A DNA stretch of 47,442 nucleotides, taken from IMG/VR virus record IMGVR_UViG_3300025168_000145, positions 1 through 47,442 of that record. The stretch is one strand, 5' to 3'. The first letter of the stretch is position 1. Each line of letters opens with the position of its first letter. This DNA is from a virus. Shown here one piece after another: positions 12,141 through 43,644 of this stretch. The translations under genes were made by a program, and so were the position numbers. The notes under the pieces were generated by a model that saw nothing but the letters and a program-made list of their open reading frames with translations, did no database searches and had not been told where the DNA came from.

Positions 12141-15100
12141 TTATTTACTTTTACTTTGTAACTTAATGATCATTTTAACTCTATCTTTTTCAGACTTTAA
12201 ATATTTAGATATCATACTAGAAGGATAACCTAAACTCATAAGCATATTAACCTGGTCTTTTTTATTTAATTTATATAAAGATTTTTCGTGTTTTTCTGAT
12301 TTAGATAATTTTACTTCTTTTTTCTTTACTTTCTCTTCTTTAGGCTTAGTTTTACTAGTTTCTAAAGCATCATCAATTAACTTACTATTGTCTTTGTATA
12401 ATTCAGCAATTTTATCTGTTCTATTTTTTTCTTTCTTAAGTTTCTTGATTTCCTTATCTGATAAATCTAAAGATTTTAATAGATCAACTTGCTCTTGCTT
12501 ACTCAAATCAAATAGTTCTTTACTTTTTACTTCAACTTCTATTTCTTCGTCTGTTTTGTCAGGATATTTTTCTTTTAATTTAGTTCTTTTCTTTTCAAAC
12601 TTCTTTTTCTCACTTTCCATTTTCTTTTCCTGTTTTTTCCTTTCTTTTATATCTTCACCTAAAGCAATTATATCCGGATCTTTAATTCCCAAGTCCCAAG
12701 TGTTCCAACCTAATAACATAGCTGCTCTTTGCCATACTTCATTGCTAGAATCCATAGCGTTGTCTAAATTTAACATTTTATTAGACAACCTACCAAGCGG
12801 AACGTTAGTAACGCCCTCTACAACATTACCAATCATAGACCAAACTGGGTTATCTAAAGTAAATCCTCTCTCCATAATTATATCCCTATTAAACTTTTCA
12901 GTTTGTATAGAAGAATATATCTTACGTAACTTAGAACCAATTGGAGGTGAGAATCCAAGAACCGACAACAACGTGTAAGCATGGTCTGATTTAGTCATAA
13001 AATCTTCATCAACGTCTTTGGCTCTTTGTTTGTTGTATTCCGTTATAGAATTTTTAATAGTAGACACTACCTTTCCACCATAACCAAATACTGATAACCA
13101 AGTGTCAATCATAGAGTTCATCATTCTTTCGGTTTTCTTATCTATCATCTCTTCTTTTTCGTCGTCATCATCAGATCCTATAACTGCAAATAAAGCCGAT
13201 TGTAAAGCCGTAAACACCACCGCTTGTACAGCTCCGTAATATACTATTTTAGAAATATGTGTTTTGGCATCTCCTCTTCCGTTTACAAAATCTCTAATAG
13301 CTTTGTTCATTATACGACCATATTGCATAGGTGTATTTTGAAAAGATAATATTAATCTACCTAATGGATTAGCTTGTTGTTGAGATATTAAATCTGGTCT
13401 TGCTGATTGCTGAGATACTTCTGTTGTTTCTTGAAAATCTAACCAAGCTTGTTTTTCCGCTTCTTCAAGTGTTATTTTAGAATCGGCTTTCATTATAGAT
13501 TTAATTCTGTTTCTATAAAATGTAGCACCACCAGATGAAATAGCAAAACTATCTGCGATTTGTGTGGGAGTGAAACCTTTTTTAAGTAACCAGGCGATTA
13601 TTGCCTTTGCTTTGTTATCGCTGTTAGCAACAGCCTCCGCTATTTCAGCTTCGTTAACATTATATCTTAATCCAGAACGTCTCTGCTTAAGCATATCTGA
13701 ATTAAATATGAAGACAAAGTCTTTTATAAATTGAGGAAAATTAGCAAATGCTGCTGCCGCCTTTAAAGGATTATTATCACTCCAATTTATATAGTTAGTA
13801 GCGGATATAGTTTGTAGAACCGCGGAACGAATATTAAAGAACATGATAGCACCTACTGAGTTGTTAACCCAGTTCATATATGTATTCATTAATCTATTAG
13901 CACCCGTAGGTCTATTCTTACCAGTTTTCATACGGTATAAAATATCCTCTAGAGCCTCTCTAAATTTAACTCCATATATAACTTCTATCTTATTTAAATT
14001 TTCTTTAGAAAATATCTGATCAACGTTTTGTTGCCATTCGGCTAAAAACTCTGTTCTAGCATCTCCTATAGCTCCATCACTCATTAAGTCCGAACCAATA
14101 TTTTCTGTTAACCAATATTCTCCAGGTTTTGAATAACCATCTGATTTTTTAGAAACCACACCTAAGGCATCTGCAAAAGCAACAAGTTGAGGGTCTATTT
14201 GAATAAAATCAACTAAGATTTTTAAATCTCTCGCAGATAATCCAGGTATTTCAAAACCGGCTTTATTCCACAAATAAACTCTAATAGCTTGATCTACAGT
14301 AAATTTATTTCCTTCATATGTTTTGATAGAACCATCAGGCATCTCGGTTTGCATACCGTCTAGTTTTTGGTTTAAATCTTTTTTTACATCAGGAAACTCT
14401 TTTAATAAGTTTCTATAATCTTCAGCTGAATTTTGTCTAGCGGTATTTAATTCATTAACACCTCTAGCAAATGGATCTATCAAGGCTTTCTTTAAAGTTT
14501 CAAACTGTCTCTCTCCTTTCTTTCCCTTACCTATAAAGTTATATAATAACCCAGCAAAATCTTGAGCTGAAGGTGGTATTAATCCTCTAAACTTAAATCC
14601 TTTTCCTCTTAATTTAGCTTGGGCATCTGAGAAACGTTTTTTAGAATCAACTCCAGTTGTTTCTTCTAATATTTCATTTATAGTAACATCTAAATTTTTA
14701 CTAAACTGTATCTTAGCTTGTTGGATTTTTGATTTAATATCAAACTGATCTAACATGTTTTTAACAGCTTGTACATTCTGTAGAGCGTCATCTGCGAAGT
14801 AAAAATCATTGTATCCTTCCGCTACTTTATCAGCCATCCACACCGCTTTAGCTTCCGATGTTGAATTTCCTAATCCAGTGATATTTTTTAAAGGTATATT
14901 TAATCCATTTTCTTTTAAGAAAACTTGTATTGCAACCGCGGATTCTTGAGGCCTAGCTGTTAATATAAACATATTGTCGGTACCAAACTTACCCGCTAAC
15001 TTTTTAGCTTTATTTAATAAAGGTGCTGGTTTACCATCTACAACTTTGTTAAACTCAGAAAAATCAAATTTATATCCTTGCTCTGCTAGGTCTTGATAAG

Positions 15101-18100
15101 TACTAGCGTATTGTTCTGCGTTTAAAGATCCGGTTGTTCCATCTGGAGCCGTCCATAGTACCTTGGATTTAGTTGTAGCTAATGTATCGTCAAAATCTAA
15201 AACAGTAATACCCTGCGCTTCTGTATCTTTATTTATTAATCTAGCCTTGTTTATAGCCTTACTGTTTTTTATTATAGCTTCAGTGCCAATCTTAGTTCCT
15301 TTTGGACCTCCTGCAGAATTTATATTAAGTACTTCTGCTAAAGTTTTGTCATCAATAGTCATTATTCCATTGGGATCAATACCATTTTCAATAGCGGCTA
15401 CAACTTCGTCAAAATAACGTTCAAACCAATTATCCATCACGGTCCAACCTTCTCCCATACTGACGGTTCTTTTAGCTCCTTTACTTCCTAGTTTAACCTT
15501 GTCGTCATAATTGTCTAAAGCAATTAGTTTGTAGTTTTGTTTTATTAACTCAAAAGCTGTTTTAAAATCATATTCACCTAATATAGTGTGTAATAAGTAC
15601 AGGTAAGAATTAGTAGCTTGCATAGCGTGTTCCCACTCGTATGTCTTATCGCCGTATCCTTTAGGATCCATGCTCCACCCAATAAATTCTGCCCACTGTC
15701 TATGTGGGTGCTCTGTTACGTTGCCAACTAAAGAAAAGTAATACCCCCATATTCTAGCGTTATTTCTATTGGCCTTGATATCATCTTTTACTCTTTGCCA
15801 AAGTTGAGTACCCATACTAACATGCATTTCATTTATTTCAGCTGTAGTCATTATAACAACTTCACCGTCAAAAGTTTTATACTTTCTACCTTCTTTAGCT
15901 CCTTCATTAAAATCTTCGGCATTTTCACCAAAAAGGGCTTTGTAAGTTTTACCACCTTTATATTTAGCGGCTGATCCAGTGAACTCCGGCCCGTAGTCAC
16001 TGTCAGTTAGATTATCAAGCATATTCTTTAACTCTTGCTTGTAATAATCTAAAACTTTCATTGGTTTGCCGTCAACATCTATAACTTTTTTCCTAATAGA
16101 TTTTTTAATATTAATATAGGTGCTTTTACCAGTTAAAGTAGTCCAAGAAACTAAAGATTTAGGAAGTTTAGCAATAATAGTATTTTTTATAGACTGTATT
16201 CCAGTATCTATGTCAGATCTAGAATCCCAATTATGCATTGGTTCTAACTCATTTAAATCCAAGATTTTATTTATACTGTTTCTATGTGCAGAATCTATTA
16301 TATCAGCTATTTTAAAGGTAGGATTTACAAATCCTTCCGTAGTTTGATATTCTATTGAAGCGTTAGCACCGTCAATTAATTCTTGAACAACATCTACAGA
16401 CTCTTTAAATTTCTTTTTCTCACTAAACGATATATCGGCTTGACCAGTAGTAACATCAGCTATTTCTTGTTTAACTTTAGCTATAGCATCTGCTTCTTTA
16501 GTTTTCTTAAGTTGTGCTTCTTTTATTCTTTGTGCAGCGGACAGCGAGGCTTGTTGACTTATTACTACGGCGGCACCTTTTAATAGTTGTCCTACTTTAG
16601 ATCTATTTTCTTTTGTAGGTAACACATTAGTTAAACCGTCTTCTGTAATACCTAAGTCTTCTTGAAATTGTTTAGCCGCTTTGGTTAACTCCGTTTCGCT
16701 AAGATTACTAAACTCAGGTTTTAACTCCCACAAACCAACTTGAGAAGTTAAACCTTGTGATCTAGCACGTTTACCATCAGTTTTAAATTTCGGTTTATAA
16801 AAATATTCTAAAATTCTATTTGGTAAACCTATTGCTCTACCATAAGTGTCTCTTGATACTCTTATATTCTCACCTAATCTATTTATATCCGCGTCTTTCT
16901 TTGTAACATTTTCTTTTGGTAGTATCTTAATAAACTTTTTAGTAGTTTTTATTGGGGTGAAAAAATCTTGTATATTTTTAGATTCAGAAGGTTCTAATAT
17001 ACCTTTTTTACCAGCGTCTAACTCTTTTTGAGATATCTTTTCACCAGTATTAACATCTAAAATAGCATCAGAAGTAGTTATGTTAGTTTTTGGATCAGTT
17101 AAAGCGTACTTACCTTTGTTGTTTTTTCTTAGCGCGTTAAATATAATACTACCAACTTTACCGATGTTATTATCTGTAACTTGTTTATAATCTCCTTCGG
17201 GATTAACAACTTTAACTATGTCATCAGCTTTATTTGTTAAAGCTAATACATTTATTTTAGCGTCCGAAGCAACGGCATCATCAGCTAACTTCTCGTCTAA
17301 AGGTGTTAAGTCTACTGTTTCAGCCTCTAGTTGTTTCATAGTTTCGTCTAACTCTACTTGACTAAAATCTTCTACAATAGCAGGGTTGTTTTTAAAAGCA
17401 TCTAGTATTCTGAATTTAATTCTACCGTTTGTAAAACCATATAAAGTTCCTCTTCCATCAAACTTATCAATATCTTTTTTGGTTAACAATCCAGATATAG
17501 TCTCCATCATAAGTTCTTCCCTACCATTATCTGTAAGGTATCGATTTATAGGTAAATTAATAATTTGAGCGTTTACCATGCCTGGCAACTCACTCATTAT
17601 TCTTTTATCAGAAGGATCGAATTTTTCTTTGTTAAAGCTACCGTCGTCATTTGTAGCTACATCTTGCACTTCTTCTAAACTAGTTTTAGCCGCAGCTTTA
17701 GAAAAATCAATTTTAGTTTTAGTGTCTGTTTCTTTAGCTTTTTCAACGTTTTCCTTACCAACAATATCTGCTATTTTACTTTCTTTAATATCTTTTATAT
17801 CCTGCTTAGTAATAGTACCTTCTTTTATCTTCTTGCCAAGCTTAATCATAAAATTAACAGCATCGTCTTCTCCCTTAAAGTTTAAATCAGCATTTTCTCC
17901 TAAAGCGTCTTTAGTACTTGAATTAATCATCCAAGCAAAATATCCACCTAATCCTTTGTTCTTCTTAGATTTTAAATCTATTCTACCATCACCGACAAGT
18001 TCTAAAAAGTTTGTTAAAACCTCTTCGCTTTTCATGTTTTTTAACGTCGGCAGTTTACCTGATGTTCTGTCGTACGCTTCTTTTCCCTCTGGTATAACAT

Positions 18101-21100
18101 CACCCTTTTCGTATGTTTCAACTCTTGTTTGTAAAACTTTATAAAGCTTTTCATTTGTTTTTTGAACGTAATCTAAAACTGTTTCAGCAATACCATTAAA
18201 CGCTTCTGGATTATTACCAAAAGCCATTTTAAAAATGTAATGTCCTCTTTCGTGTGTTTCAGTTTCTAGACGATTATCTTTAGCCATGTTTTCTACAACT
18301 TGAAAAGAAAATATTTCGCCCGTTGTAGTTGTTAAATTACCTCCATGATTACCTCTGTCAAGACCGTTTATTACTTTCGTTTTATCTGCTTCAGATAAAT
18401 CTTTCCTTCCATTAATAAATTTAATTGCCTCTTCAACTGTTTGAAAGTTTTGAAAACTATCATCTAACTTTCTAAAATCTTTAAGTTTATTAAATTCGTT
18501 ATTAATTTCCTGAGTATTATATATAATCTCTGCTACTTCTTCAATCTCTTTTTCTTTTGGGTCTGTTTTACCTTCAGATATTAGTTGGTTCTCTGCGTCT
18601 TTATATATTTTATCTTTTCTATCTATATCTTTTTTGTCTGTGCTAGATTTAAATCCAGCAAACTTTTTACCAAAGTTTTTATCATCTCTTAAATAATCTC
18701 TTTTTGCTTGTAAATCATTAAACTCTGTTAACAATCCGTTTAGTATGATTTGCTTTTCGTTACCACTTAAATCATTATCAGCATTAACTCTTTGTGCTTT
18801 GGCAGAAATTTTTTGTTGCTCTACAGTAGCGTTGTTATAAGAATTAAAAAAATCTTTTTCTAAATTATTTACTTTTTTCTCTTCTTTTTCTAATATAGCC
18901 TCGTTTTCAGTTTCTAATCTCTTTTTTTCTTGTTTAACTGTCTCTATATTACCCTCTATATTATCAGTGTTATTACCTTTTGTTTTATTAGCCTTTAACG
19001 TAGAATTTAATTTTACTTCTGAGTTTTCTAATTCTTTAAGGGTATTAATATTAGATCTATAAGTTTTTAAATCATCTGGTTTAGCAAAAGTATTCATAAC
19101 TAATCCTTTGTAAAAAGGAACATGACCAAAACCCGTACCAAAAAAACCGCCACTAAATGCTGCGTGTGCTAAATTCTCTGTTATCGGTCTACCTGTTATA
19201 ATATTTTGCGTGATTGTAGTTCCAGTTTCAGAAGCCGTTTCTAAAGCTGGATCGAATAATAACTGTCTTTTACCATATGTTTTAAAGTATTCTTTTGTAT
19301 CCATTCGTAATAATTTAGCGTAATTATTACCAAACATAGCTTGTCCAGATCTTTTTAATACTGGATAAGTTAAGAATCTATCAAATACAACTTCAGCGGC
19401 ACCATAACCAAGACTAGTAAAAAATTTATCTACTCTACTTGTTTTTGGTCCAAAAGAATAATAATCTTCTTGAGCCATTGTCCCCCATTGTTCTCCAAAA
19501 CTAGAAGTTCCTAAAGCGGTTATTCCTGGCCATCCAGTTGCTATCATCGCAAAAATAGGCGCTTGATTAGCGGTTTCTAAAGATATAAATCGACCAAAAT
19601 TTGATAAAGAACTAAATGCGTTACCAAACTCAATATCTTTCTGCATTGTCTCTCTCCACTCCCATTGGCGCTGTCTAAACTCCATCATTCTTTCGTCCTT
19701 TGTTGTAACGTCTCTATTGGATATTGTAGCTGCAAAGTTAGTTAGACCGTAATCTATGTTAAACATTATACTTTCTGTTTGATTGTATAATGTTCCAGTA
19801 AACTTCTCCCAATCGTCATAGTTTCTTTTAGCAGCATCAGCACGAGCATCATTATCTTTTATTGTCTCAACTTCACCTAAGTAATCTTCTTCTAAAACAA
19901 TGATTTCGTTTAGTTTATTTTCATACTCTAGTCGGCCAAGTTGTGCGTTTTGGTAAAGACTATATGGCAAACGTGTTCCGTTTTCTAATTCTACATATTC
20001 TTCTCCTTCTTTTATATCAAAGGTATAAACCGTAGGAAAAGTAGAGTTTTGAATTTCTAAAACCTCAGTATAAGCATTGATGGGAGATCCTTGGGTGCCT
20101 TGTTCTTTTACTAAATCAGCATGTTTTGATTCAAGTTTAATTTGTGTTTTAGCTAACTCTTTCTTTTGTTTTATATCTATTTTTCTATGATATATTTCCC
20201 CTATATTAAGTAGAGCACCATAACCTGTTTCTTCTACCTTGTCTGAATTGAAAAAATCTATCTCTTTTTGAGTTTTAAGACTCGCTATTCTATCTTTAAT
20301 TAAATTTTCTCTTGTTCTATTTTGAATTTCTTCTACAGTAGGATCTTCATTTCCACTTTTTATAAGTTCTTGTTCAGCTTTTTCTTGTTCTTCTTTGTAA
20401 GGTATTGTAGTTTTTGTTTCGTACTTACCAGTAGAATACATCATTCCACTGCTATACCCGGTGACTGATGATGTTGTTACTTGTGCGTTAAGATTAATCT
20501 CATTTACCTCTTTTTCTATAAGTCTACTCTCTTTAGGCGTTATAACTAAAGGACCATAATAAACCTGCTTAGATGTACCGCTAATAACCTTACCGTCCTT
20601 GAGTTTATAGTCATCTGATACAATTTGTACACTTTGTCTTTCTGGTCCAATATACGACCCGTCTGTAGAATTCAAATCTGCGTAACGACTAGTTAAAGCA
20701 TCTGTTGATATTTTAAATCTTTTAATATCTTTTTTTTCTGCTGTAGAATTAATAAAATTAGAAAGTTTATTAAATTCATTAATATAAACACCTTTTTCAG
20801 TGGCACGATCTAAACTACTAAAAGGATCACCGGCTCCTACTGTTCCAATACCGAAATTTATCATTTCTGTTTTTCCGGTTTCGTTATGAGTTATTTCAAT
20901 AGCTTCGTAATTTGCGAATGGAATCCCTGGTAACTCGTTGCTCGCACCTAACCAATTTACCGTTTGCTCAACAGTGTATCCTTTTCCTAAAACATTTTGT
21001 AAAAACTCAACTTGAACTTGATCAGTTTTGTCAAAAAAATCTATTATATTTTTATAATTAGTTTCGTAATCATCTTTTTCTGTAAAAATCCCTCCTAAAA

Positions 21101-21581
21101 CAGTTTCAGATGGAGTATCTTTAATGTCTTGTATTATTTTTTGAGTACTTTCTTTTCTTGTTTTTTCGTTCCTAGGAAGATCTATAGTTGTAGTTGGAAT
21201 ACCAATTATACAACTTCCATCATCAATATCAGCATCTGGATTATAATTAGAAGCTGATTTATCAGTACAACCGGATATCATTACATTGCTTTGGGCAGTT
21301 TGATAATCATACTCCGTAAGTTCTCCAGGTGGTATGTAAGTTTCTGGAAGTTTAAAATCTATAGTCTTCTTTTTTTCTTCTTCTTTTTTCTTGTCTTCTA
21401 CCTTAGTCTTTTTTGGATCCGTTATATCGTATTCATAACCCGCTGCTAAAACGTCGCCATCATGCGCGCTAATATGATTTTCTTTAGGCATAAGCGCATG
21501 ACCTCTACCTTTTCCTGTGTCCCTTAAAGGAGATTTTTTATTACTACGTCTTAATGGTGATGATAGTGGATTTTTATTCAT
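12141..21581 (-). CDS. giant polyvalent virion protein, probably ejected (3146 aa)
   Basis: This is a single frame of 9441 bases. Domains in order: a basic N-terminus; one GCTDKSASNYNPDADIDDGSC repeat unit (about residues 104-125) matching the repeats of the 735-residue secreted protein; an amphipathic or hydrophobic patch near 678; coiled coil at about 840-1000; an HERGH zinc-protease motif (1110-1114); a sigma region-2-like helical segment (about 1325-1420); a HAD phosphatase domain with DFDDT (2129-2133), ILTARP (~2205) and FADDA (~2262); a hydrophobic helix near 2780-2805; and a Lys-rich C-terminus with two ~40-residue repeats. Giant multi-domain proteins in this position of short-tailed phages are usually packaged and ejected with DNA. 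No RNA polymerase motif was found. The segment functions are inferred. Confidence 0.85.
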   Translation of the reverse strand: MNKNPLSSPLRRSNKKSPLRDTGKGRGHALMPKENHISAHDGDVLAAGYEYDITDPKKTKVEDKKKEEEKKKTIDFKLPETYIPPGELTEYDYQTAQSNVMISGCTDKSASNYNPDADIDDGSCIIGIPTTTIDLPRNEKTRKESTQKIIQDIKDTPSETVLGGIFTEKDDYETNYKNIIDFFDKTDQVQVEFLQNVLGKGYTVEQTVNWLGASNELPGIPFANYEAIEITHNETGKTEMINFGIGTVGAGDPFSSLDRATEKGVYINEFNKLSNFINSTAEKKDIKRFKISTDALTSRYADLNSTDGSYIGPERQSVQIVSDDYKLKDGKVISGTSKQVYYGPLVITPKESRLIEKEVNEINLNAQVTTSSVTGYSSGMMYSTGKYETKTTIPYKEEQEKAEQELIKSGNEDPTVEEIQNRTRENLIKDRIASLKTQKEIDFFNSDKVEETGYGALLNIGEIYHRKIDIKQKKELAKTQIKLESKHADLVKEQGTQGSPINAYTEVLEIQNSTFPTVYTFDIKEGEEYVELENGTRLPYSLYQNAQLGRLEYENKLNEIIVLEEDYLGEVETIKDNDARADAAKRNYDDWEKFTGTLYNQTESIMFNIDYGLTNFAATISNRDVTTKDERMMEFRQRQWEWRETMQKDIEFGNAFSSLSNFGRFISLETANQAPIFAMIATGWPGITALGTSSFGEQWGTMAQEDYYSFGPKTSRVDKFFTSLGYGAAEVVFDRFLTYPVLKRSGQAMFGNNYAKLLRMDTKEYFKTYGKRQLLFDPALETASETGTTITQNIITGRPITENLAHAAFSGGFFGTGFGHVPFYKGLVMNTFAKPDDLKTYRSNINTLKELENSEVKLNSTLKANKTKGNNTDNIEGNIETVKQEKKRLETENEAILEKEEKKVNNLEKDFFNSYNNATVEQQKISAKAQRVNADNDLSGNEKQIILNGLLTEFNDLQAKRDYLRDDKNFGKKFAGFKSSTDKKDIDRKDKIYKDAENQLISEGKTDPKEKEIEEVAEIIYNTQEINNEFNKLKDFRKLDDSFQNFQTVEEAIKFINGRKDLSEADKTKVINGLDRGNHGGNLTTTTGEIFSFQVVENMAKDNRLETETHERGHYIFKMAFGNNPEAFNGIAETVLDYVQKTNEKLYKVLQTRVETYEKGDVIPEGKEAYDRTSGKLPTLKNMKSEEVLTNFLELVGDGRIDLKSKKNKGLGGYFAWMINSSTKDALGENADLNFKGEDDAVNFMIKLGKKIKEGTITKQDIKDIKESKIADIVGKENVEKAKETDTKTKIDFSKAAAKTSLEEVQDVATNDDGSFNKEKFDPSDKRIMSELPGMVNAQIINLPINRYLTDNGREELMMETISGLLTKKDIDKFDGRGTLYGFTNGRIKFRILDAFKNNPAIVEDFSQVELDETMKQLEAETVDLTPLDEKLADDAVASDAKINVLALTNKADDIVKVVNPEGDYKQVTDNNIGKVGSIIFNALRKNNKGKYALTDPKTNITTSDAILDVNTGEKISQKELDAGKKGILEPSESKNIQDFFTPIKTTKKFIKILPKENVTKKDADINRLGENIRVSRDTYGRAIGLPNRILEYFYKPKFKTDGKRARSQGLTSQVGLWELKPEFSNLSETELTKAAKQFQEDLGITEDGLTNVLPTKENRSKVGQLLKGAAVVISQQASLSAAQRIKEAQLKKTKEADAIAKVKQEIADVTTGQADISFSEKKKFKESVDVVQELIDGANASIEYQTTEGFVNPTFKIADIIDSAHRNSINKILDLNELEPMHNWDSRSDIDTGIQSIKNTIIAKLPKSLVSWTTLTGKSTYINIKKSIRKKVIDVDGKPMKVLDYYKQELKNMLDNLTDSDYGPEFTGSAAKYKGGKTYKALFGENAEDFNEGAKEGRKYKTFDGEVVIMTTAEINEMHVSMGTQLWQRVKDDIKANRNNARIWGYYFSLVGNVTEHPHRQWAEFIGWSMDPKGYGDKTYEWEHAMQATNSYLYLLHTILGEYDFKTAFELIKQNYKLIALDNYDDKVKLGSKGAKRTVSMGEGWTVMDNWFERYFDEVVAAIENGIDPNGIMTIDDKTLAEVLNINSAGGPKGTKIGTEAIIKNSKAINKARLINKDTEAQGITVLDFDDTLATTKSKVLWTAPDGTTGSLNAEQYASTYQDLAEQGYKFDFSEFNKVVDGKPAPLLNKAKKLAGKFGTDNMFILTARPQESAVAIQVFLKENGLNIPLKNITGLGNSTSEAKAVWMADKVAEGYNDFYFADDALQNVQAVKNMLDQFDIKSKIQQAKIQFSKNLDVTINEILEETTGVDSKKRFSDAQAKLRGKGFKFRGLIPPSAQDFAGLLYNFIGKGKKGERQFETLKKALIDPFARGVNELNTARQNSAEDYRNLLKEFPDVKKDLNQKLDGMQTEMPDGSIKTYEGNKFTVDQAIRVYLWNKAGFEIPGLSARDLKILVDFIQIDPQLVAFADALGVVSKKSDGYSKPGEYWLTENIGSDLMSDGAIGDARTEFLAEWQQNVDQIFSKENLNKIEVIYGVKFREALEDILYRMKTGKNRPTGANRLMNTYMNWVNNSVGAIMFFNIRSAVLQTISATNYINWSDNNPLKAAAAFANFPQFIKDFVFIFNSDMLKQRRSGLRYNVNEAEIAEAVANSDNKAKAIIAWLLKKGFTPTQIADSFAISSGGATFYRNRIKSIMKADSKITLEEAEKQAWLDFQETTEVSQQSARPDLISQQQANPLGRLILSFQNTPMQYGRIMNKAIRDFVNGRGDAKTHISKIVYYGAVQAVVFTALQSALFAVIGSDDDDEKEEMIDKKTERMMNSMIDTWLSVFGYGGKVVSTIKNSITEYNKQRAKDVDEDFMTKSDHAYTLLSVLGFSPPIGSKLRKIYSSIQTEKFNRDIIMERGFTLDNPVWSMIGNVVEGVTNVPLGRLSNKMLNLDNAMDSSNEVWQRAAMLLGWNTWDLGIKDPDIIALGEDIKERKKQEKKMESEKKKFEKKRTKLKEKYPDKTDEEIEVEVKSKELFDLSKQEQVDLLKSLDLSDKEIKKLKKEKNRTDKIAELYKDNSKLIDDALETSKTKPKEEKVKKKEVKLSKSEKHEKSLYKLNKKDQVNMLMSLGYPSSMISKYLKSEKDRVKMIIKLQSKSK

Positions 21582-24972: not shown

Positions 24973-26229
24973 TTACGCGTTTGTTCCTATTGTTATAAAA
25001 TTATCTAAATCTAAGTATATTGTTCTGTTAGTGGATGGATGTGAATTTATTATAACGCTGTTGTTAATTTTAAGTTGGTCTCTACTTCCTTTCCCTAATC
25101 CACTTCCAAAAAATTTCAATACAGTTCCAACTGACAACGCTGCGGTTTGGTTTAGTTGTACCGTTATAGTTCCATCACCACCACCACCATCCCAATCTGC
25201 GTTTAAAACGTTTAGTACTTTATTAGTACCGTTGTTATTTACATTCAATCCCTTAACCCTAAGATGAGATCCACCTGATATACCATATGTGTTATCTAAT
25301 GCTATCACCGCGTTAGTTCCTGTAGCACGTACTCTTTTAGTAAATTGTTTAGATAATGTTACGGTTTCAACAGTAGGATTCCATTTTGAAAAATTAATTT
25401 TTACCCCTATAGCGCTTTGTATAACGTTAGGTCCATAAGCGCGAAATGTCATAACGTTATTGTCTGTTATAGCTTGATCTCTTGATAAGGTTAAGGTTTT
25501 TGTAACAGTATTTATATCTAATATTGTAGTTGCCGCGCCAGGCGCTGTTGTACCTGTTATATAAGTCAACTCCATTCCAATTGCTAAATCCGTTAAATCA
25601 TCTACTACAACTAAATTGCTGTCAGAAGCTACAGTTCCGTTGGCGGTTTCTGTAGTTTCAAAATACCAATCTGTATCTAATGGTTGCCTTATTAATCTAA
25701 GACCGTATCCTTGACCATCAGATTTCTTGTTTAATACATCCCAAGATATCGCTTTTGTTACAGCGGTTGGTGATACAGATGATTCTGTAGAGGTTGTAGT
25801 AGGTTGTGTTTCGTAGTGATCGTTTACCGATGACGCCCCGTCGCTGCGTGGCGTGAAAGTTAAAACAGCATTAGCAAGTTGAGTAATAGTAGTACTATGC
25901 GAATGTTTCCCTGACGAAAAACCTAATTCAGTGTCTTTGTCCGGAGGAGTAAGTAAAAGAATAGTATAAGTGTCTCCACTCGCATTGGTTGGGAAATCAA
26001 TACTACCATTATAAACATTAGACACCATCTTCACTTGTAAATTACTCGTGGAAATAAACCCTGTTTCAAAAGATCTAGATTTAAAATTATAAAACTTCAC
26101 GGGATCTGAACCATCAAATAATTGTATTGAAAATTCTGCATTTACTTCTCCGGTTACAGAAAATTTTCTAGTTGAAGCGCTTTTTGCTAAATTACTTTTA
26201 TCAATATCAAATCTAGTTATTTTCTTCAT
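24973..26229 (-). CDS. tail or virion structural protein (418 aa)
   Basis: This is a Thr/Ser/Asn-rich all-beta protein beginning MKKITRFDIDKSNLAKSAST. It has short repeats of phage-like strand motifs such as VVVDDLTDLAIGMELTYI and TLTLSRDQAITDN, which I recall from marine phage tail proteins. A Gly-Gly-Gly-Asp-Gly loop (GGGGDGTITVQL) occurs near residue 345. There is no enzyme or membrane signature. It shares its first base with the stop of the 2091-residue gene upstream (TAATG) and is separated from the adhesion gene by one base. It is most likely part of the tail or its fibre base; the precise role cannot be read. Confidence 0.68.
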   Translation of the reverse strand: MKKITRFDIDKSNLAKSASTRKFSVTGEVNAEFSIQLFDGSDPVKFYNFKSRSFETGFISTSNLQVKMVSNVYNGSIDFPTNASGDTYTILLLTPPDKDTELGFSSGKHSHSTTITQLANAVLTFTPRSDGASSVNDHYETQPTTTSTESSVSPTAVTKAISWDVLNKKSDGQGYGLRLIRQPLDTDWYFETTETANGTVASDSNLVVVDDLTDLAIGMELTYITGTTAPGAATTILDINTVTKTLTLSRDQAITDNNVMTFRAYGPNVIQSAIGVKINFSKWNPTVETVTLSKQFTKRVRATGTNAVIALDNTYGISGGSHLRVKGLNVNNNGTNKVLNVLNADWDGGGGDGTITVQLNQTAALSVGTVLKFFGSGLGKGSRDQLKINNSVIINSHPSTNRTIYLDLDNFITIGTNA

Positions 26230-29200
26230 TATACGTTGTATATTATGTTTTTAGCAATTCCTATTCCTTGGAAATTAAACGCGCTTGTATCTAAATCAGC
26301 GCTAGCGTCGCCTTTTATATAATTGAACCACTTCCCTTCTTTCTCTATGAATTCAGTGACAGTTCCATTTTCTTGATCTGTAACTATACTTTCACAAATC
26401 CAACCCTCATCACCATCGTAATTCAAGGTGTTAAAGTTTTTAATAGCAGTTGGAGATTCATTGAATACAAATTTTACAGTGGAGGGTTCTACGGTTCCTC
26501 CATAAAACGTATTCCTAGCTTCATTATCGTGTTTATAACATAATCCATTTTTAAACGTATAATAATCTCCAGACATACTAACTCCAGATTCTTGTATGAA
26601 TGATTTAAAACTAACCCAACCTTTTACATCTTCACTGTAAGTTATAGTTTTAGAATCAGGCCAAGTTGTAGATCCCGTGTCTATTGTTAAGTTGTAATCA
26701 TTTTTATAAGTATCAAAACTACCGATAAGATTGTAATCAAGATTTTTAAATTCATCTTTAAACCATTTACTCATACCGGCGTCGGATATAGGAGTTAGTC
26801 CATCCATTGATAATCTTAATACTGCTCCACGTTGTCTATCTGTAAAATAAGCTCTGTAAGATTCTTTAGCAAATGATTCTGGATTTTTAGATATACCATA
26901 GTCTCCAACAAAAGGATTTGCATCACCTAAAACCATGTTCGTTGCTACTAACTGTGGATTTCCATCCGCGTTATATAAAGCGTTTTTATTAGCTGTAATT
27001 CCTACTACTCTGTCTTCACAAAATGCAATTAAACTTATTCTCCTTGAAAATAATTTTTGTATACTACCGTAAGTTGGATTTAAATCTTTTGTAATTTTTT
27101 CAGCCATTATAAACTGATTAAGATTATTTACTCCACTTGTAGAATTGTAAATTCCAGAATAAATCATCCCACTCTTTCTATGTTCTTCTACGTAAGGTCT
27201 ATCTAAGGTCGCACTTGCTTTAACTCCATTCGTTATAGTCATAGAATTAAAATCGTCTCTAATTCTATTAGATTCTACTCCATTAAGAAATGAAAAACAA
27301 TTATACCAACCCAATCCAGTTTCCATATCTAAACCTAGATCATCAATCATTGTAAACGTCGTTCTATAATTACCACTAGGAGTAACTGCTGAGTTCATAT
27401 TAGAACCAAGTTTTATAGTTGTATAACTACCATCATCTCTAATAAACCTTACCTTCGCGTCATTGTAATCAACTACAGTTGTTTCGTCTTCTTCTAATCT
27501 ATTAACCCCAGGGGTAATCGTAAATTCCAATGGGTAACTATTAGCGAAACCAGCTAAAGTGACATTCTCGTATATATTAATAGCGCCTTGTCTAGCCTCT
27601 GGTATATCTGGAAATTCCACTCTACAACCTACTTGAGCAAATAACTCGTTAGTATTTTCGTTTATTTTTATAGGATGAGCTTGACCTGCTTCGTAATAAA
27701 TATCTAAATCAACATTGTCTTTAGATTCCGTTTCCCATATAGCTGGATTTGTAGCTACTTCACCAGAAGCCAAAAACGAATCCGTCCCTATAAATTCTAT
27801 TGTATCGTGTCTAATAGCGTTTATATTAGTACCGTTAGTAGGATTAAACGTGTTAGCCGTTGGATTTTGATCTAGCTCTAAGATATAGACAAGTCTTCTG
27901 TTGCTTCGTTTTCCAAATCCATACAATCTATTTTCTAAATCCCCTTGATCTACAGTACCACTTGCACCACCTCCATCACCATTTGCATCAACAGTAGAAG
28001 CGTAGTCAATAACATTAAGTTCAATGTCTCTATAACTACCACGAAGACCTTGTCCACTCGTTTGGTGTGGATTTGTTTCTCTTCCCGCTCTCCAATTATG
28101 ATGGTTGTATACTTTTTTAACCTTACAAGATTTTATTGTGTATACTTTGTTTGCGGTATCACCCTTAAATCTAAATTTTTTACCAGGTGTTTTCAGGTGC
28201 ATTACAAAGTCAGCTATCAAACCTCCTGGATCACCATCTGGACCATACGTTGGATCCCATTGTCTATCGTGATCTTCTTGGAAATTAGTATCATAACCGC
28301 TAACTGGAATAACACAATTGTTTCCATTCGCATCAATTGACGTGATATTTTTAGCTCTATTCCAACTGTTATCTGGTTTCTCCATAAGAACACCGTTAGG
28401 ATTCGTGCCAACGTTAGTATAAGCAGTTGCTACATTAAAATAATTTGAGCCAGTAGAAGTACCGTCAAAAACACCTCCACCATGTATGCCTTGTAGTTCT
28501 CTAGATATGTCGTTAATATTTAGTGGTTGACTAGCGAACGTACCGTCAAATAAATCAACACCTGGACCAAGAAAAGAAAGATGCATGTAAAACCTACTGT
28601 TAGAAACACCGTAGGTGTTTTCTATATTTGTGTTAAACATACTGGTTTTCCATCTTCTAATTCCATCAGGTCTACCCAATACATCCGTACCGTTACTAGT
28701 GTGGGTATCGTCAGTTGTAATTATACCTTCCAAACCATTTATTAACTTTGTGTTTGGTAAAGGTAACGCTGATGATAAATCATATTTGATCCAATCTTTA
28801 TAAGTAGTTCCGCTTATAACTGTACTTCCGAAATTCGCAAAATTACCCGAGTCACTAGAAGGCCAACTTATAGATTGTAAATACGTTGTTGGTGTCCAAG
28901 ATCTTACTCCACTTGCTGGAATTTGACTACTAGTACAATGGTAAGAAATATCAGTCACAGCGCTAATGTCTCCACCGCTAAAACCATAACCACCTTCTCT
29001 AGCATACTCTCCATGCTGCACGGAGGATACAAACGTATTATCTATAAAAAACCTACAGCCACCGTTATTAATCATTGAGCTCAGAATATTATCCCAGGCT
29101 CCTCTACTTCGCGTAGTACTAGAATCCGAATTAGAAATATCTGCTGTATTACCATCTACACCGGCAGTTGTAGGAATAGCTGAATAATCTCCGTTATAAG

Positions 29201-32200
29201 TATTATTTAGTAATCCACCGACGTAAGGTGAACTACCGCCGGGATTGCTACTAGGATTATTGTTTATAGTATTTAATACATCTGCTTGCCAATTTACATT
29301 TTGAAAAGCTGCTACTACGTGGTTTATTTGAACATCTCCACTTTCAACAAATTTTAATTCGTTATTAATTAAATCACTTGCTAGTATTTTAACAAAAAAT
29401 CTGCCAGAAAAAGCTTCTAAGTCTTTTTCTACTTTCTTTTCAATTTTAACTGTTATATCTGCGTGAAAATCATTAGCGTTTGTAGAAGCACCACTACCAC
29501 TGTCATGACCATCACTTAAAATCAAAGTACTATCAACAGCTGTTATAGCTTTGTTTAATTTTATACGGTATTCATCCGGCGCTCCTTCTCCACCACTTTC
29601 AACTTGAACTATTCTATATTTTTCTGAGTGTTGGGTGTTAAAAACGTTTAATTCTTTAGAAAAAGAGAAGTATAAACTACCATCGGAAACTTGAAAAGCA
29701 TCTCCCCACTCGCCCTGTATAAGTCTAGCACCTCCGTTATCCTTCCAAACACCTCCGTTTATTATAAACGTGTTGTTGTTAGTGTTGGTATTAAGAGGTA
29801 AAAAATCTTCGTCGTGAAACAATCCATCGGCAGCAAAACTAGTACCGGTACCAGTGGAATCTGTGTTTAAAATACCTGTATTATCACTAGCTGTATTAGT
29901 TATTTCACCCATGCTTATATACTTATACTTAATAGCACTAGGAGCTTCATTTTGAACATCTAAAACTCTAAATTTGTTATCTTCAAATACCTGTGTGTCT
30001 GAATTTATTGTTCTTTTAAGTATTATATAATCATCTTTAGAAATTTTATTTCTATCGGAAGAAGCAAATGATAACCACACGTGATCTTCTGAATCAAGAT
30101 CTTCTAAGGTAGGTGTATAAAGAGCATCCATTACTAAATTGTAGTATTCTCCAGAAGTTTCTTTTACATAAAATTTATAATAATCCGCCCAAGTTGGATG
30201 AGCCGATTTAATCTCAGCGTTCAATTGTAGGGGATAACTAGCTAATGGTAAATTATGTTCAGCGTCTTCAAATGGAACCACTACAGAAGATTCCGCAGAG
30301 GTAAATACAGGGGTTTCTCTACCGAACTCATCTCCATATACGACTCCTAATTGATAATTTCTTTGAGATTTTACAGATGGTAATCCGCCTTCGTTAAACG
30401 TAATATTATTTTGATTACTTGAAGACACTTCCACTATTTCAACGTTATCTATACTACCTTCAAACGCATCTGAAACTGTTGTTATGGTTGGAGTATCAAA
30501 TTGAAGTATATCACCGTTGAGATAAAGAGGTGATCCAGAACTCGTTTGACTTATAAAAGAAACATCAGTTAACGTTATAGTATTACCGTTTATAGCTGTT
30601 ATTTCATTATCTAAAGTGTTCGCGGGGTCTATTGATATCCACGTACCATAGATACTACCTGCGCCAACTGGTTGCATTTGCTGAGTTGGATTACCACTTG
30701 CATCGAGAGTTAGAACGTTAAAAACATACTGGAGTTTGTCACCAACGCTCAATCCACTTACATCGAATAACTCCACGGTATTGCTTACATTTACCGCGGT
30801 TGGATATGTTGTAAACGTGTTTGGTGTAACCGTTGTTACTGCTTGACTTTCTATCCAAAATTTACCATTAAAACTAATTGGATCATTACTACTTGGTAAC
30901 ATAGTAAGCGTTTCTTCGTAATGATGAGTATCTCCTGTGGTAAGATTTAGAGCGATAAGATCAATATCTTCTTTAATATAATCACCGGATGTACCTACGC
31001 CGTTAGTTCCATTTGTTAATCTAATACTAAGATTTCCAGATTGGTAATTTACAACATCAAAAGCAATTTTGTATTCAGTTCCAGCGGCTCCCCAACCACC
31101 GTTATTTGGATATACCATTTTTTCAAATGCTGGAGCGGGGGTTCCTGCGGTACCAAAATCAATCACTTTATCTGTATCGTTCCAAGTTACATTCGCGTCT
31201 AAAACCCAAGGATTTGAACTGGTTAAAAAATTATAATTAGTTATTAAATTTTGATATAAAAATGTATCAAAAGAATTTTCACTAACACTTCTTACCGCGT
31301 AACTAGAACTTATTTTAGGGAAAAACGAAGTGTCTGTGTAGTTTTGTTTATAATTTCCGTAAACAATTCTATTTCCAGTTACTTCTTGTGCTAACGCTGT
31401 TTTTGGAACATTATCCCACGGTCTTAACAATTGATTTTCTGGAGTAGCAGCGTATATATTTTCGCTTTTAACTACAAACTTACCGTCATAAACAGAACCT
31501 GAATTAAAACCACTTGCGGAGACGGATGTGTTTGATGAATCTTTTAAATCAATAACTTCCATTATATAAACAACATTAGAATTTTCTTGTTTATACAAAA
31601 GATCTATCTGTACTACATCTAACGGCATATTAGGAGAAATAAAATCATATAATTCAATTGATTCTATCATATTAACCATACCCGCGTTGTAGGGTTCTTT
31701 TTCTGAATACGCCGTGTTAGAATCGTGCAACTCGCCATCTTGGTTTGTTGGATATTGAGAATTAAACACTACATCTGTAAACGGTCCAAACGCAGAGTAC
31801 TCTCCATCATCGTATCTATATCTATAAGAAAATCTAGGGAATATAGTTTTGAATAAAGGATTTTTGTTATCTGAAGCTGCTGGATTTATTTTAACACTTA
31901 AAGTTTTTAAAGGTTTTTTCTTTATTACGGTAATATGTTCTTCTGTTACATCTACAGTAGTATTAGTTCCATCTACAAATAATTTTGAGTGAGTAGTTAA
32001 ATTAGTGTGAGTATTTAATTTAAAGGAATCAATATTTATTTTTTTAGGTTCATTAACTCCATCTGTCCAAAATAAAAGATTATCAATTACATTAATCCCA
32101 GTTATTATATTACCGTGTTCAAACTTTAGAACGCTGTTATCAGTATCAACTAAAACCGGAGTAATAGCACTGTCTTTTGTATATTCTACAATAGCGCTTA

Positions 32201-32504
32201 CGTGCGTTCCAGCCGTACCATCATTAGTTGTAATAAACGAATATAAAACATCGTTTTTTTCATCAGCAATAGATCCCACGCACTCGTAACCAGAAGTAAT
32301 AATAGCACTGGTGTTAGTATTAACAGCGCTATTCCCAGGCACCACAGTATTCCCCAATATATTTTGTACAGTTCCAATATCTGCTCCGTCAGAAGTTGAA
32401 ACTTGTATATTCAATGCGTCTCTATATTGTCCATTTGGAACTATTCTTTCGTCAAGGTCTTTGTTCATTTTACCTTGAGAGAAAGTGTTTTTAATCTCTG
32501 GCAT
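26229..32504 (-). CDS. giant tail / stabilisation protein (2091 aa)
   Basis: The start FSQGKMNKDLDERIVPNGQY leading to RDALNIQVS is characteristic of phage 'stabilisation' or tail-muzzle proteins that close the tail of short-tailed phages. A CBM4/9-like beta insertion starts near residue 420 (ITNYNFLTSSNPWV) and reaches about 690 (DNVEIVEVSSS). The C-terminal third carries a conserved-looking core, near 1830-1900, with YRAYFTDRQRGAVLRLSMDG and later GWVSFKSFIQESGVSMSGDY. It has no enzyme signature. It lies directly after the connector and ring genes, in the place of the tail tube or muzzle. The tail assignment is good; naming a specific component would be over-interpretation. Confidence 0.8.
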   Translation of the reverse strand: MPEIKNTFSQGKMNKDLDERIVPNGQYRDALNIQVSTSDGADIGTVQNILGNTVVPGNSAVNTNTSAIITSGYECVGSIADEKNDVLYSFITTNDGTAGTHVSAIVEYTKDSAITPVLVDTDNSVLKFEHGNIITGINVIDNLLFWTDGVNEPKKINIDSFKLNTHTNLTTHSKLFVDGTNTTVDVTEEHITVIKKKPLKTLSVKINPAASDNKNPLFKTIFPRFSYRYRYDDGEYSAFGPFTDVVFNSQYPTNQDGELHDSNTAYSEKEPYNAGMVNMIESIELYDFISPNMPLDVVQIDLLYKQENSNVVYIMEVIDLKDSSNTSVSASGFNSGSVYDGKFVVKSENIYAATPENQLLRPWDNVPKTALAQEVTGNRIVYGNYKQNYTDTSFFPKISSSYAVRSVSENSFDTFLYQNLITNYNFLTSSNPWVLDANVTWNDTDKVIDFGTAGTPAPAFEKMVYPNNGGWGAAGTEYKIAFDVVNYQSGNLSIRLTNGTNGVGTSGDYIKEDIDLIALNLTTGDTHHYEETLTMLPSSNDPISFNGKFWIESQAVTTVTPNTFTTYPTAVNVSNTVELFDVSGLSVGDKLQYVFNVLTLDASGNPTQQMQPVGAGSIYGTWISIDPANTLDNEITAINGNTITLTDVSFISQTSSGSPLYLNGDILQFDTPTITTVSDAFEGSIDNVEIVEVSSSNQNNITFNEGGLPSVKSQRNYQLGVVYGDEFGRETPVFTSAESSVVVPFEDAEHNLPLASYPLQLNAEIKSAHPTWADYYKFYVKETSGEYYNLVMDALYTPTLEDLDSEDHVWLSFASSDRNKISKDDYIILKRTINSDTQVFEDNKFRVLDVQNEAPSAIKYKYISMGEITNTASDNTGILNTDSTGTGTSFAADGLFHDEDFLPLNTNTNNNTFIINGGVWKDNGGARLIQGEWGDAFQVSDGSLYFSFSKELNVFNTQHSEKYRIVQVESGGEGAPDEYRIKLNKAITAVDSTLILSDGHDSGSGASTNANDFHADITVKIEKKVEKDLEAFSGRFFVKILASDLINNELKFVESGDVQINHVVAAFQNVNWQADVLNTINNNPSSNPGGSSPYVGGLLNNTYNGDYSAIPTTAGVDGNTADISNSDSSTTRSRGAWDNILSSMINNGGCRFFIDNTFVSSVQHGEYAREGGYGFSGGDISAVTDISYHCTSSQIPASGVRSWTPTTYLQSISWPSSDSGNFANFGSTVISGTTYKDWIKYDLSSALPLPNTKLINGLEGIITTDDTHTSNGTDVLGRPDGIRRWKTSMFNTNIENTYGVSNSRFYMHLSFLGPGVDLFDGTFASQPLNINDISRELQGIHGGGVFDGTSTGSNYFNVATAYTNVGTNPNGVLMEKPDNSWNRAKNITSIDANGNNCVIPVSGYDTNFQEDHDRQWDPTYGPDGDPGGLIADFVMHLKTPGKKFRFKGDTANKVYTIKSCKVKKVYNHHNWRAGRETNPHQTSGQGLRGSYRDIELNVIDYASTVDANGDGGGASGTVDQGDLENRLYGFGKRSNRRLVYILELDQNPTANTFNPTNGTNINAIRHDTIEFIGTDSFLASGEVATNPAIWETESKDNVDLDIYYEAGQAHPIKINENTNELFAQVGCRVEFPDIPEARQGAINIYENVTLAGFANSYPLEFTITPGVNRLEEDETTVVDYNDAKVRFIRDDGSYTTIKLGSNMNSAVTPSGNYRTTFTMIDDLGLDMETGLGWYNCFSFLNGVESNRIRDDFNSMTITNGVKASATLDRPYVEEHRKSGMIYSGIYNSTSGVNNLNQFIMAEKITKDLNPTYGSIQKLFSRRISLIAFCEDRVVGITANKNALYNADGNPQLVATNMVLGDANPFVGDYGISKNPESFAKESYRAYFTDRQRGAVLRLSMDGLTPISDAGMSKWFKDEFKNLDYNLIGSFDTYKNDYNLTIDTGSTTWPDSKTITYSEDVKGWVSFKSFIQESGVSMSGDYYTFKNGLCYKHDNEARNTFYGGTVEPSTVKFVFNESPTAIKNFNTLNYDGDEGWICESIVTDQENGTVTEFIEKEGKWFNYIKGDASADLDTSAFNFQGIGIAKNIIYNV

Positions 32505-38728: not shown

Positions 38729-41152
38729 TTATTGGGGTTCAAATGCCCCTAAATTGAATCCACCACCCATTATATCATTACCTGATGATTCAAAGTTTTT
38801 AGGTGGTTTTTCATTTTTTCTTTGATCAATCATTTCTGATTGTTGTGTTGCTTGAATTTTTGTTCTTTTATCCTTGCGATCTTCTTTTTCTTTTTCTCTA
38901 CCTTTAGTTCCCTCTACCTCCATTTGCCTAAGCTGCATATTGTATTGGAACTCTTGCTCCATTAGCATTTTCTTTAATTCTCCCTCTGCTTGCATTTTCT
39001 GAATATCTAATTGAGATTCCATTTGAGCAAGTTCACCTTTAGATTGCGTAAGAGCTTGGTTTTTTTGAACTTCCATTTCAGCCGCGGCTTGCTGCGCTTG
39101 TATATTAGCTTGTGATTGTGCTTGGATGTTTTGTTGTTGTATTTTTTGATCTCTATCTATTTTCTTTTTTCTTCTAATTTTTAACAATGAGTTAGCCATT
39201 TTGAGATTTTTTATTTCTCTAACGTCAATAGCGTCTTCTAACTCTATATTTTCCTTAGACAATGCTACTTGTATATTGTTTTCTAATAAAGCTTTTTCTT
39301 CTTCGTCTGGTGCCAGTTCTATAAATATACCAAAGTCATATAAGTGTAGATTAGACATTTCTTCTAAAGTAGAAACGTTATGCGCTCCAATAGCCTGTAT
39401 AAAAGCATCTTTCGTAGGAGAGTATTCTATAATATCAGATATTCTTAACGACAAGCACTCCGCTGTTTGCGCTGTTAAAAACAAACCAGATTGTAATATA
39501 TGTCTAGTCGCTGTATTAGAATTAGCAGCGGCCATTTTCTGTACACCAACTAAAGCGTTTTTATCTGGAGTAGTACCATCTCTAGCTTCGTTTAATCCAG
39601 TCACATCTCTTATCATTTGTAAATAGTAATTATATGTTCCAATTAAACTCTGCATTTTATTACCTCCACTACCAGATTGTATTTCTTGAATAGGTACTTT
39701 ACCTGGATTCATATCACCCTCACTCGTAAACGATCTCCCAATCACGGATCCAGTTTGGAAGAACATATTTAAAGCTTCTTGCGGGCTGTAGTTTGTTCCA
39801 TTACCTAAATCAATTTCAGCAAGTCCATCAGCGTCTAGGTATACTCCATCTGGTACCATACGCGACATCACTTGCTGTAATTTTAAATGTGTAAGTTGGA
39901 TCATATCTGCAAATCCCGTTATTCTACCAACTAAACTTTCTATTTTACCCTTATATATTCTAGGTGCTACTATAGAATAATTCATTTTTACTTTAGTAAA
40001 ATCACTTTTAGGACGCATCATATTTTTTGCCATCTCCCATTTAAGTAATTTTTCTGTACCAAGTACCATAGCACCTTCGTAAAGACACTCTATAGCTCTG
40101 TGTAATCTTTCGTATCCACCTTCTTTTTCTTCAGGAGGATTAAACGAATCATCTTTTTCTATAGCTTTTGAAGCTCCAGATCCAGTTTCTTTCATTTTAT
40201 AAACCTCGTTCATGTAACTCTTAAAGTTAAAATATAATACTTGAACTGAATTATTATCTATTTCTCTAGATTTGTTACCTCCATGATTATAATTACTTGT
40301 GTGAGTTGATTTGTTTTTTGCTAACTCTTCTAAATCTTCATGCGATAAATGTGGGAATTGTTTTGCTAATTCATTAATTGGAATTGTCTTAACTTCTCCG
40401 ACGTAATATATATCATCAAAATATGGAGATTCAGTATACGAGTACACTAAATCAGCTGGATCAACATAATCTATAGTAACGCCCTCAGAAGTAGTAAAAC
40501 CCGTTTTTACTGCTCCAATTCCAAGAACAGTTAGATCGTAGTAAAATCTCTTTTTAATTAACTCATATTTATTACCTTCCATTAAAACGTTTATAGCTTG
40601 TTCTTCTGCTATTTCTACAGACTGCTTGTAAGATAATTGCATGTGCAACCCTAACTCTTCTTCGTTTGCTGGTAAGGTTTCTGGATCATTTTCAGATAAA
40701 TCAAGATTAAAGTTTTCTTTAATATAAGCATCAACACTCTTCATTTCCATATCTCTTATAATAGACTCCATATACTCGGTGCGTTTACTAACTCCATACG
40801 GATCTTGAGAAAATGCTTTTATATCGTACATTCTTTCTGCAATACCATTTACAACTATATCTACAAATTTAGGGATTATTGGAACTGGTTTCCAGTCTAA
40901 ATTTAAATAGGACAAATCACCATTGATAGATAACTCATCCTTATATTTTTGAATCGACTGTTCTCCACGAGCGTATAATCGTAAATTGTGGAAGTTGTTT
41001 TGGGTGGTAGTATATCTAGTGTTTCCACGGTCTTGGTGGAACCACTCGGACTCAATAGCTTTAGCTATTTTTAATCCATAATCGTAACTTAGCTTTTCGG
41101 CATCGCTTACTACTTGACTAGGGAAATAATTATTTATAACAGACTCTGCCAT
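38729..41152 (-). CDS. portal protein (807 aa)
   Basis: This is a large portal with the crAss-like/podovirus character: about 600 residues of conserved core followed by a long Gln-rich coiled-coil tail. The core includes DYGLKIAKAIESEWF, FHNLRLYARGEQSIQKY, PKFVDIVVNGIAERMYDI, DVTGLNEARDGTTPDKNALV and NTATRHILQSGLFLTAQTAE. The tail (about residue 665-745) is Gln- and Ala-rich (QQNIQAQSQANIQAQQAAAE), with a coiled-coil pattern and a basic region. It ends in GGGFNLGAFEPQ. The length exceeds most portals, mainly because of the tail. It overlaps neither neighbour but lies only 3 bases from the terminase gene. The portal assignment is secure by synteny and sequence. Confidence 0.88.
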   Translation of the reverse strand: MAESVINNYFPSQVVSDAEKLSYDYGLKIAKAIESEWFHQDRGNTRYTTTQNNFHNLRLYARGEQSIQKYKDELSINGDLSYLNLDWKPVPIIPKFVDIVVNGIAERMYDIKAFSQDPYGVSKRTEYMESIIRDMEMKSVDAYIKENFNLDLSENDPETLPANEEELGLHMQLSYKQSVEIAEEQAINVLMEGNKYELIKKRFYYDLTVLGIGAVKTGFTTSEGVTIDYVDPADLVYSYTESPYFDDIYYVGEVKTIPINELAKQFPHLSHEDLEELAKNKSTHTSNYNHGGNKSREIDNNSVQVLYFNFKSYMNEVYKMKETGSGASKAIEKDDSFNPPEEKEGGYERLHRAIECLYEGAMVLGTEKLLKWEMAKNMMRPKSDFTKVKMNYSIVAPRIYKGKIESLVGRITGFADMIQLTHLKLQQVMSRMVPDGVYLDADGLAEIDLGNGTNYSPQEALNMFFQTGSVIGRSFTSEGDMNPGKVPIQEIQSGSGGNKMQSLIGTYNYYLQMIRDVTGLNEARDGTTPDKNALVGVQKMAAANSNTATRHILQSGLFLTAQTAECLSLRISDIIEYSPTKDAFIQAIGAHNVSTLEEMSNLHLYDFGIFIELAPDEEEKALLENNIQVALSKENIELEDAIDVREIKNLKMANSLLKIRRKKKIDRDQKIQQQNIQAQSQANIQAQQAAAEMEVQKNQALTQSKGELAQMESQLDIQKMQAEGELKKMLMEQEFQYNMQLRQMEVEGTKGREKEKEDRKDKRTKIQATQQSEMIDQRKNEKPPKNFESSGNDIMGGGFNLGAFEPQ

Positions 41153-43369: not shown

Positions 43370-43644
43370 TACTTAGATCTACCTTCTGCGAATCCTTTAA
43401 AGACTTTTTCCTTTCTCTCTTCAGGTGTTTTGCCCTCAAGTAAATTTTCTTCCTCTTGAATTCTTGTAAGTATTTCGAATGCGTCAAATATAGCTAGTTT
43501 TTTAGTAGCTGCAGCGTTCTTTAGTCTATCAGCAGTAATATCATCTCCAGAATCAACAATAGCCTCTTTAGCTACTTTGATTAACTCCTCCACTGCCTTG
43601 TGCCCAGCTTGGATTATACTCTTCTTCGTTTCCTTGATATTCAT
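43369..43644 (-). CDS. putative small terminase subunit (91 aa)
   Basis: This is a short, entirely helical protein (IIQAGHKAVEELIKVAKEA, then ADRLKNAAATKKLAIFDAFE) encoded immediately before the large terminase, with a 1-base overlap. Size, helical nature and position match DNA-recognition small subunits, which are poorly conserved in sequence. Its 5' end overlaps the 3' end of the co-chaperonin-like gene by 77 bases in another frame. The first ATG (43644) is the likely start because the reading frame has a continuous helical pattern from there. The assignment is by position and shape only. Confidence 0.62.
   Translation of the reverse strand: MNIKETKKSIIQAGHKAVEELIKVAKEAIVDSGDDITADRLKNAAATKKLAIFDAFEILTRIQEEENLLEGKTPEERKEKVFKGFAEGRSK

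Follow-up and report, generated by a model that had tools for sequence, protein, structure and literature searches.

Does a giant phage protein that probably forms part of the virion carry a piece of a sigma factor, and what could such a piece do when phage DNA enters the host? The question is raised by the 47,442-nt IMG/VR record IMGVR_UViG_3300025168_000145 (hereafter the window), whose minus strand encodes a giant ORF of 3146 aa (12141..21581), a probable virion protein of the ejection type. The first-pass annotation had placed helical segments resembling sigma-70 region 2 at about residues 1325-1420 of this protein. These segments were located at residues 1332-1392 (window 17406-17588), comprising LPGMVNAQIINLPIN (residues 1332-1346, 17544-17588), GREELMMETISGLLTKKDID (residues 1353-1372, 17466-17525), and KFDGRGTLYGFTNGRIKFRI (residues 1373-1392, 17406-17465). 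The domain to which they belong spans residues about 1326-1405 (17367..17606, minus strand). Comparisons with its relatives indicate that the likeness is more than a chance resemblance and that the domain is very probably homologous to sigma-70 region 2. The fuller reading, in which an ECF-like sigma-70 region-2 domain with an upstream zincin inside an ejection-type giant acts on host RNA polymerase, is tentative, and we consider it slightly short of an even chance.

A probable virion protein in a phi38:1-like gene block

Virion structural genes and the portal, terminase, and GroES genes adjoin the giant gene, and their order is that of Cellulophaga phage phi38:1. All lie on the minus strand: a 2091-aa virion structural protein homologous to phi38:1 gp097 (26229..32504), the portal protein of the late/virion gene block (38729..41152), the terminase large subunit (41156..43369), and a GroES-like co-chaperonin gene (43568-44179), placed upstream of the terminase just as it is in phi38:1 and the elemo phages. 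The phage group was assigned to marine flavobacterial podoviruses related to phi38:1.

The N-terminal conserved region of the giant, residues 591-840 (19062..19811, minus strand), matched phi38:1 gp101, which is annotated as structural, with 102.8 bits and an E value of 4.8e-33 in an iterated profile search, and shuffled sequences reached at most 3.2. In phi13:2 and phi46:3, too, virion structural proteins are homologous to this region. The giant had been called a virion protein in the first-pass annotation; because its N terminus is homologous to an annotated structural protein, and with the gene order matching, that assignment is quite probably right. The counterparts (phi38:1 gp101 and the Pachyviridae proteins phi13:2 gp127 and phi46:3 gp120) occupy the same place in the virion block and share the N-terminal region with E values from 4.8e-33 to 3.2e-25. 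They differ from the giant in being 1439-1990 aa long and in having neither the sigma-like domain nor the peptidase in the three proteins tested; homology to the C-terminal family was not detected in them, including in phi38:1 gp101. Since these counterparts are without it, the sigma-like domain is not essential to the virion protein.

Upstream of the sigma-like domain, residues 1064-1263 (17793..18392, minus strand) form a predicted zincin metallopeptidase domain with the zinc-binding HExxH motif HERGH (residues 1110-1114, 18240..18254, minus strand). Among relatives of the giant, the H-E-H residues were invariant and a downstream Glu was near-invariant; three of 54 relatives weakly resembled Peptidase_M78 (IrrE).

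Relatives of the giant and spread of the domain

Seven related giants were found first, and their C-terminal 640 residues were aligned to serve as the next search query. The corresponding C-terminal conserved region of the window's giant covers residues 2331-2970 (12672..14591, minus strand). The results showed that this C-terminal family is encoded in at least 555 stretches in IMG/VR and in nine contigs from bacterial or archaeal bins. Two contigs with phage giants (L093 and L094) had been binned in a Woesearchaeota MAG, which is probably a binning error or a co-sampled phage.

A domain profile was seeded with the sigma-like stretches and then iterated. Of 88 giants at least 2000 aa long, 72 contained the domain by this profile, typically 120-250 aa after the HExxH motif. 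Two further searches with subfamily alignments yielded 105 loci, and in each of them the domain lay within a long ORF. HExxH lay upstream of the domain at 101 of these loci, and the C-terminal family was present in all 82 that had a complete 3' end. The window's own subfamily, A7, consisted of 26 sequences that were 27-51% identical to the window.

Profile evidence for homology to sigma-70 region 2

On its own, the window protein had no match to sigma families in Pfam, PHROGs, or NCBIfam, and therefore the case for a sigma origin is made through its relatives. The window segment alone likewise gave nothing relevant against Pfam, PHROGs, PDB sequences, or cultured phages. When the 3146-aa giant was searched with a profile built from 30 bacterial-genome sequences of sigma region 2, a single match appeared, at residues 1354-1399, with 5.1 bits, which is weak taken alone. 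Across the giants, the best region-2 match of the whole protein fell inside the domain in 85 of 162 proteins, compared with about nine expected, a count partly affected by the choice of seeds.

When members were scanned individually, Sigma70_r2 led in Pfam (best E value 2.1e-6), sigma70-ECF led in NCBIfam (best E value 1.7e-7), and the lowest E value in PHROGs belonged to sigma families (9.1e-5). Within A7, sigma70-ECF was the top NCBIfam family, matched by three members with a best E value of 3.3e-5. Profile-profile comparison of A7 with the 30-sequence sigma profile gave a score of 36.0 (E value 1.9e-6), and the maximum score of 100 column-shuffled controls was 16.3. A broad profile of 62 members searched against PDB sequences placed the sigma factor 8b3z first (E value 7e-4), and sigma factors made up seven of the 12 matches up to an E value of 10. 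Among the PDB searches, only this broad profile produced a clear sigma match: profiles of single subfamilies (A5, A6, and A7) had other top matches and no sigma, the single sequence L198 found no sigma, and L068 found one at an E value of only 1.3.

The seed segments had been chosen for a sigma-like pattern, and such a choice can inflate similarity. Two analyses answer this circularity. In an unselected six-frame scan of 40 related phage records with Sigma70_r2, only two kinds of ORF matched. One kind comprised 16 giants (ORFs >2000 aa), of which two scored above the Pfam cut-off, and by coordinate comparison the matches in all 16 overlapped the domain. Furthermore, a profile built with the window's subfamily left out recovered the window at residues 1280-1423 with 9.6 bits and an E value of 6.6e-5 (best of 200 shuffles, 5.3), together with the window's six closest relatives. 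The likeness to region 2 that the first-pass annotation had noticed is thus, according to the profile searches of relatives, very likely genuine homology.

Predicted structure of the domain

Structure prediction, which had been proposed with the earlier reading, did not return an unrelated fold. AlphaFold models of residues 1296-1440 and 1310-1665 had cores above 90 pLDDT, with predicted helices at residues 1326-1342, 1344-1348, 1351-1367, and 1380-1398. The best complete-domain match in Foldseek was 8b3z (SigE region 2), aligned over its whole length with a TM score by target of 0.62-0.65 and an rmsd of 2.8-3.7, at an E value that was not significant. Sigma chains accounted for about nine of the 50 matches listed in each of two Foldseek searches. 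All E values were above 0.1 and none reached 0.001, as can happen with small helical domains. A search of a viral library gave no significant match, and several phage sigma-like proteins were among the matches listed.

Residues shared with sigma70

The counterpart of region 2.2, the helix that binds the RNA polymerase core, is GREELMMETISGLLT (residues 1353-1367, 17481..17525, minus strand). At the positions of sigma70 D403, Q406, and E407, the window has E, M, and E, so that, as aligned, it does not carry the core-binding signature of this region. Gln occupied the Q406 position in 20 of 132 relatives (5 of 26 in the window's subfamily) and an acidic residue the E407 position in 74 of 132. The canonical core-binding pattern was matched by six members, three of which belong to the window's subfamily: L197 (EELQQE), L198 (EELIQE), and L226 (EELKQD). 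Nearly fixed among the relatives were the first aromatic residue (F/Y/W, 131/132), the region 2.3 aromatic (130/132), and a basic residue (126/132).

The counterpart of regions 2.3/2.4 is FDGRGTLYGFTNGRIKFRILDAFKN (residues 1374-1398, 17388..17462, minus strand). In the window's subfamily, L, Y, G, N, I, R, and D were invariant in this segment, and the Asp corresponds to the one in ECF region 2.4. The domain has no equivalent of the Trp pair in sigma70 region 2.3, a pair that ECF sigmas also lack.

Region 4 and the separate sigma gene

Scans of the giants with Sigma70_r4 gave no match except a weak partial one in phage record G032. The 250 aa downstream of the domain did not align with sigma, and a 356-aa model searched in Foldseek revealed no sigma-like domain there. 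The second kind of ORF matching Sigma70_r2 in the six-frame scan was a stand-alone sigma gene of 250-266 aa, which usually matched region 4 too. Such genes (L236-L255, phage records G010-G035) occur in many of these phages; most end in a conserved SQV(L/I/V)D tail, and they are not close to the giant's domain. Profile-profile comparison, in which the stand-alone profile was narrow, gave no support for deriving the domain from the stand-alone sigma that these phages encode. No stand-alone sigma turned up in the window record itself, a 47-kb sequence that may be a fragment. A scan of the 40 records for RNA polymerase with PF00940 gave no match, and the controls gave none either.

Proposed role and alternatives

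From homology and gene context, the giant would enter the cell together with the DNA, and the peptidase may release fragments of it. The domain could then dock on the host RNA polymerase clamp, on promoter DNA, or on both, and the docked domain, resembling T4 gp55 in this respect, would steer host RNA polymerase to phage promoters before the phage's stand-alone sigma is made. As that sigma would be made after infection starts, a sigma domain already present in the virion could cover the interval before it. That host RNA polymerase is recruited, as put forward in the first-pass annotation, is plausible; that the domain engages RNA polymerase at all we rate a little below an even call. The complete scenario for a widespread group of uncultured marine Bacteroidetes phages, in which a sigma region 2 inside the ejected virion protein captures host RNA polymerase for phage promoters (or cuts it off from host sigma) at DNA entry, ahead of all phage gene expression, is rather unlikely as a whole.

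The loss of the Gln and the failure to find region 4 make a nontranscriptional or decoy role conceivable. The domain may have descended from sigma region 2 and lost contact with RNA polymerase, serving now as a module for packing, DNA binding, or ejection inside the giant, which is possible but well below even. In favor of this explanation, the core-contacting Gln is usually lost, while fold-bearing residues and new Asn/Arg/Lys positions are conserved; the giants have no detected region 4, a separate complete sigma exists, and the counterparts of the phi38:1 type work without the domain. It is countered by the several members, some from the window's subfamily, that keep the full acidic-x-x-Q-E/D core-binding motif, and by the -10-binding face, which retains the aromatic and, in the window's subfamily, the Asp.

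A decoy that occupies host RNA polymerase at its sigma site, blocks host sigma, and so keeps host transcription shut down until the phage sigma appears is improbable. Region 2 present by itself, with the promoter-specificity region 4 not found, and the separate complete sigma in many of these phages would suit such a device, but most members have lost the core-contacting Gln, which speaks against strong core binding. Least probable is convergence, that is, a helical domain resembling sigma region 2 without common ancestry, and we give it very little credence. A small helical fold, Foldseek E values all above 0.1, PDB searches in which single-subfamily profiles rank other matches first, and seeds first picked by a sigma-like pattern speak for convergence; however, in unselected six-frame scans the curated sigma models matched best, and every time the match fell on one homologous position, and the profile-profile scores were far above the shuffle controls.

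Relation to known systems

With the sigma-70 family (PF04542; TIGR02937, sigma70-ECF), the domain shares profile homology, helix order, and the aromatic and hydrophobic core positions. It differs from that family in sitting within a protein of 2000-4000 aa, in the lack of a detectable region 4, and in the mostly lost core-contacting Gln. T4 gp55, a late sigma, is a phage sigma of the region-2 type that has no region 4, and a gp55 complex was among the Foldseek matches of the domain model. Unlike the domain described here, which lies within a virion protein, gp55 is small, free, and produced late.

Polyvalent proteins of phages and conjugative elements are injected multidomain proteins with peptidases (Iyer et al. 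2017, PMC5512222), and the word sigma is absent from that founding paper. Like them, the giant is very large and multidomain, contains a metallopeptidase, and is encoded among late/virion genes; it also combines disparate domains, a zincin and a sigma-like domain. No known polyvalent-protein domain model matched in the giant. At about 3500 aa, the N4 virion RNA polymerase is an ejected giant protein and initiates transcription (PMC12633501). It is a complete polymerase, in contrast to the sigma-like domain here.

In open-access text, our literature search found no virion sigma domain, and to our knowledge no other sigma-factor domain lies inside a phage virion protein. If the proposed role is correct, it would constitute a third way of controlling transcription before phage genes are read, beside packaged RNA polymerases and modifying enzymes such as T4 Alt, which modifies RNA polymerase. 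The group is large, given the at least 555 IMG/VR stretches with the C-terminal family, and the phi38:1-like phages of Cellulophaga offer a laboratory entry point.

Other features of the giant ORF

A 188-aa ORF on the plus strand (17578-18144) was read as mirroring the coding strand. Several of the giants L001-L005 have repeated Cys/His stretches at their C-terminal ends (e.g., CAAVSKSGNRCKT...C..H) that resemble small zinc-binding modules; the window's giant is without them. Close to its N terminus it has a Cys-containing stretch, GCTDKSASNYNPDADIDDGSC (window about 21200-21270, minus strand), which we take to resemble repeats of secreted Bacteroidetes proteins. An HAD-phosphatase-like motif, DFDDTLATT, was called by eye within the giant (window 15171-15197, minus strand), and directly after this HAD-like motif L004 and L005 have an inserted P-loop kinase-like stretch (FLAGGAGSGK).
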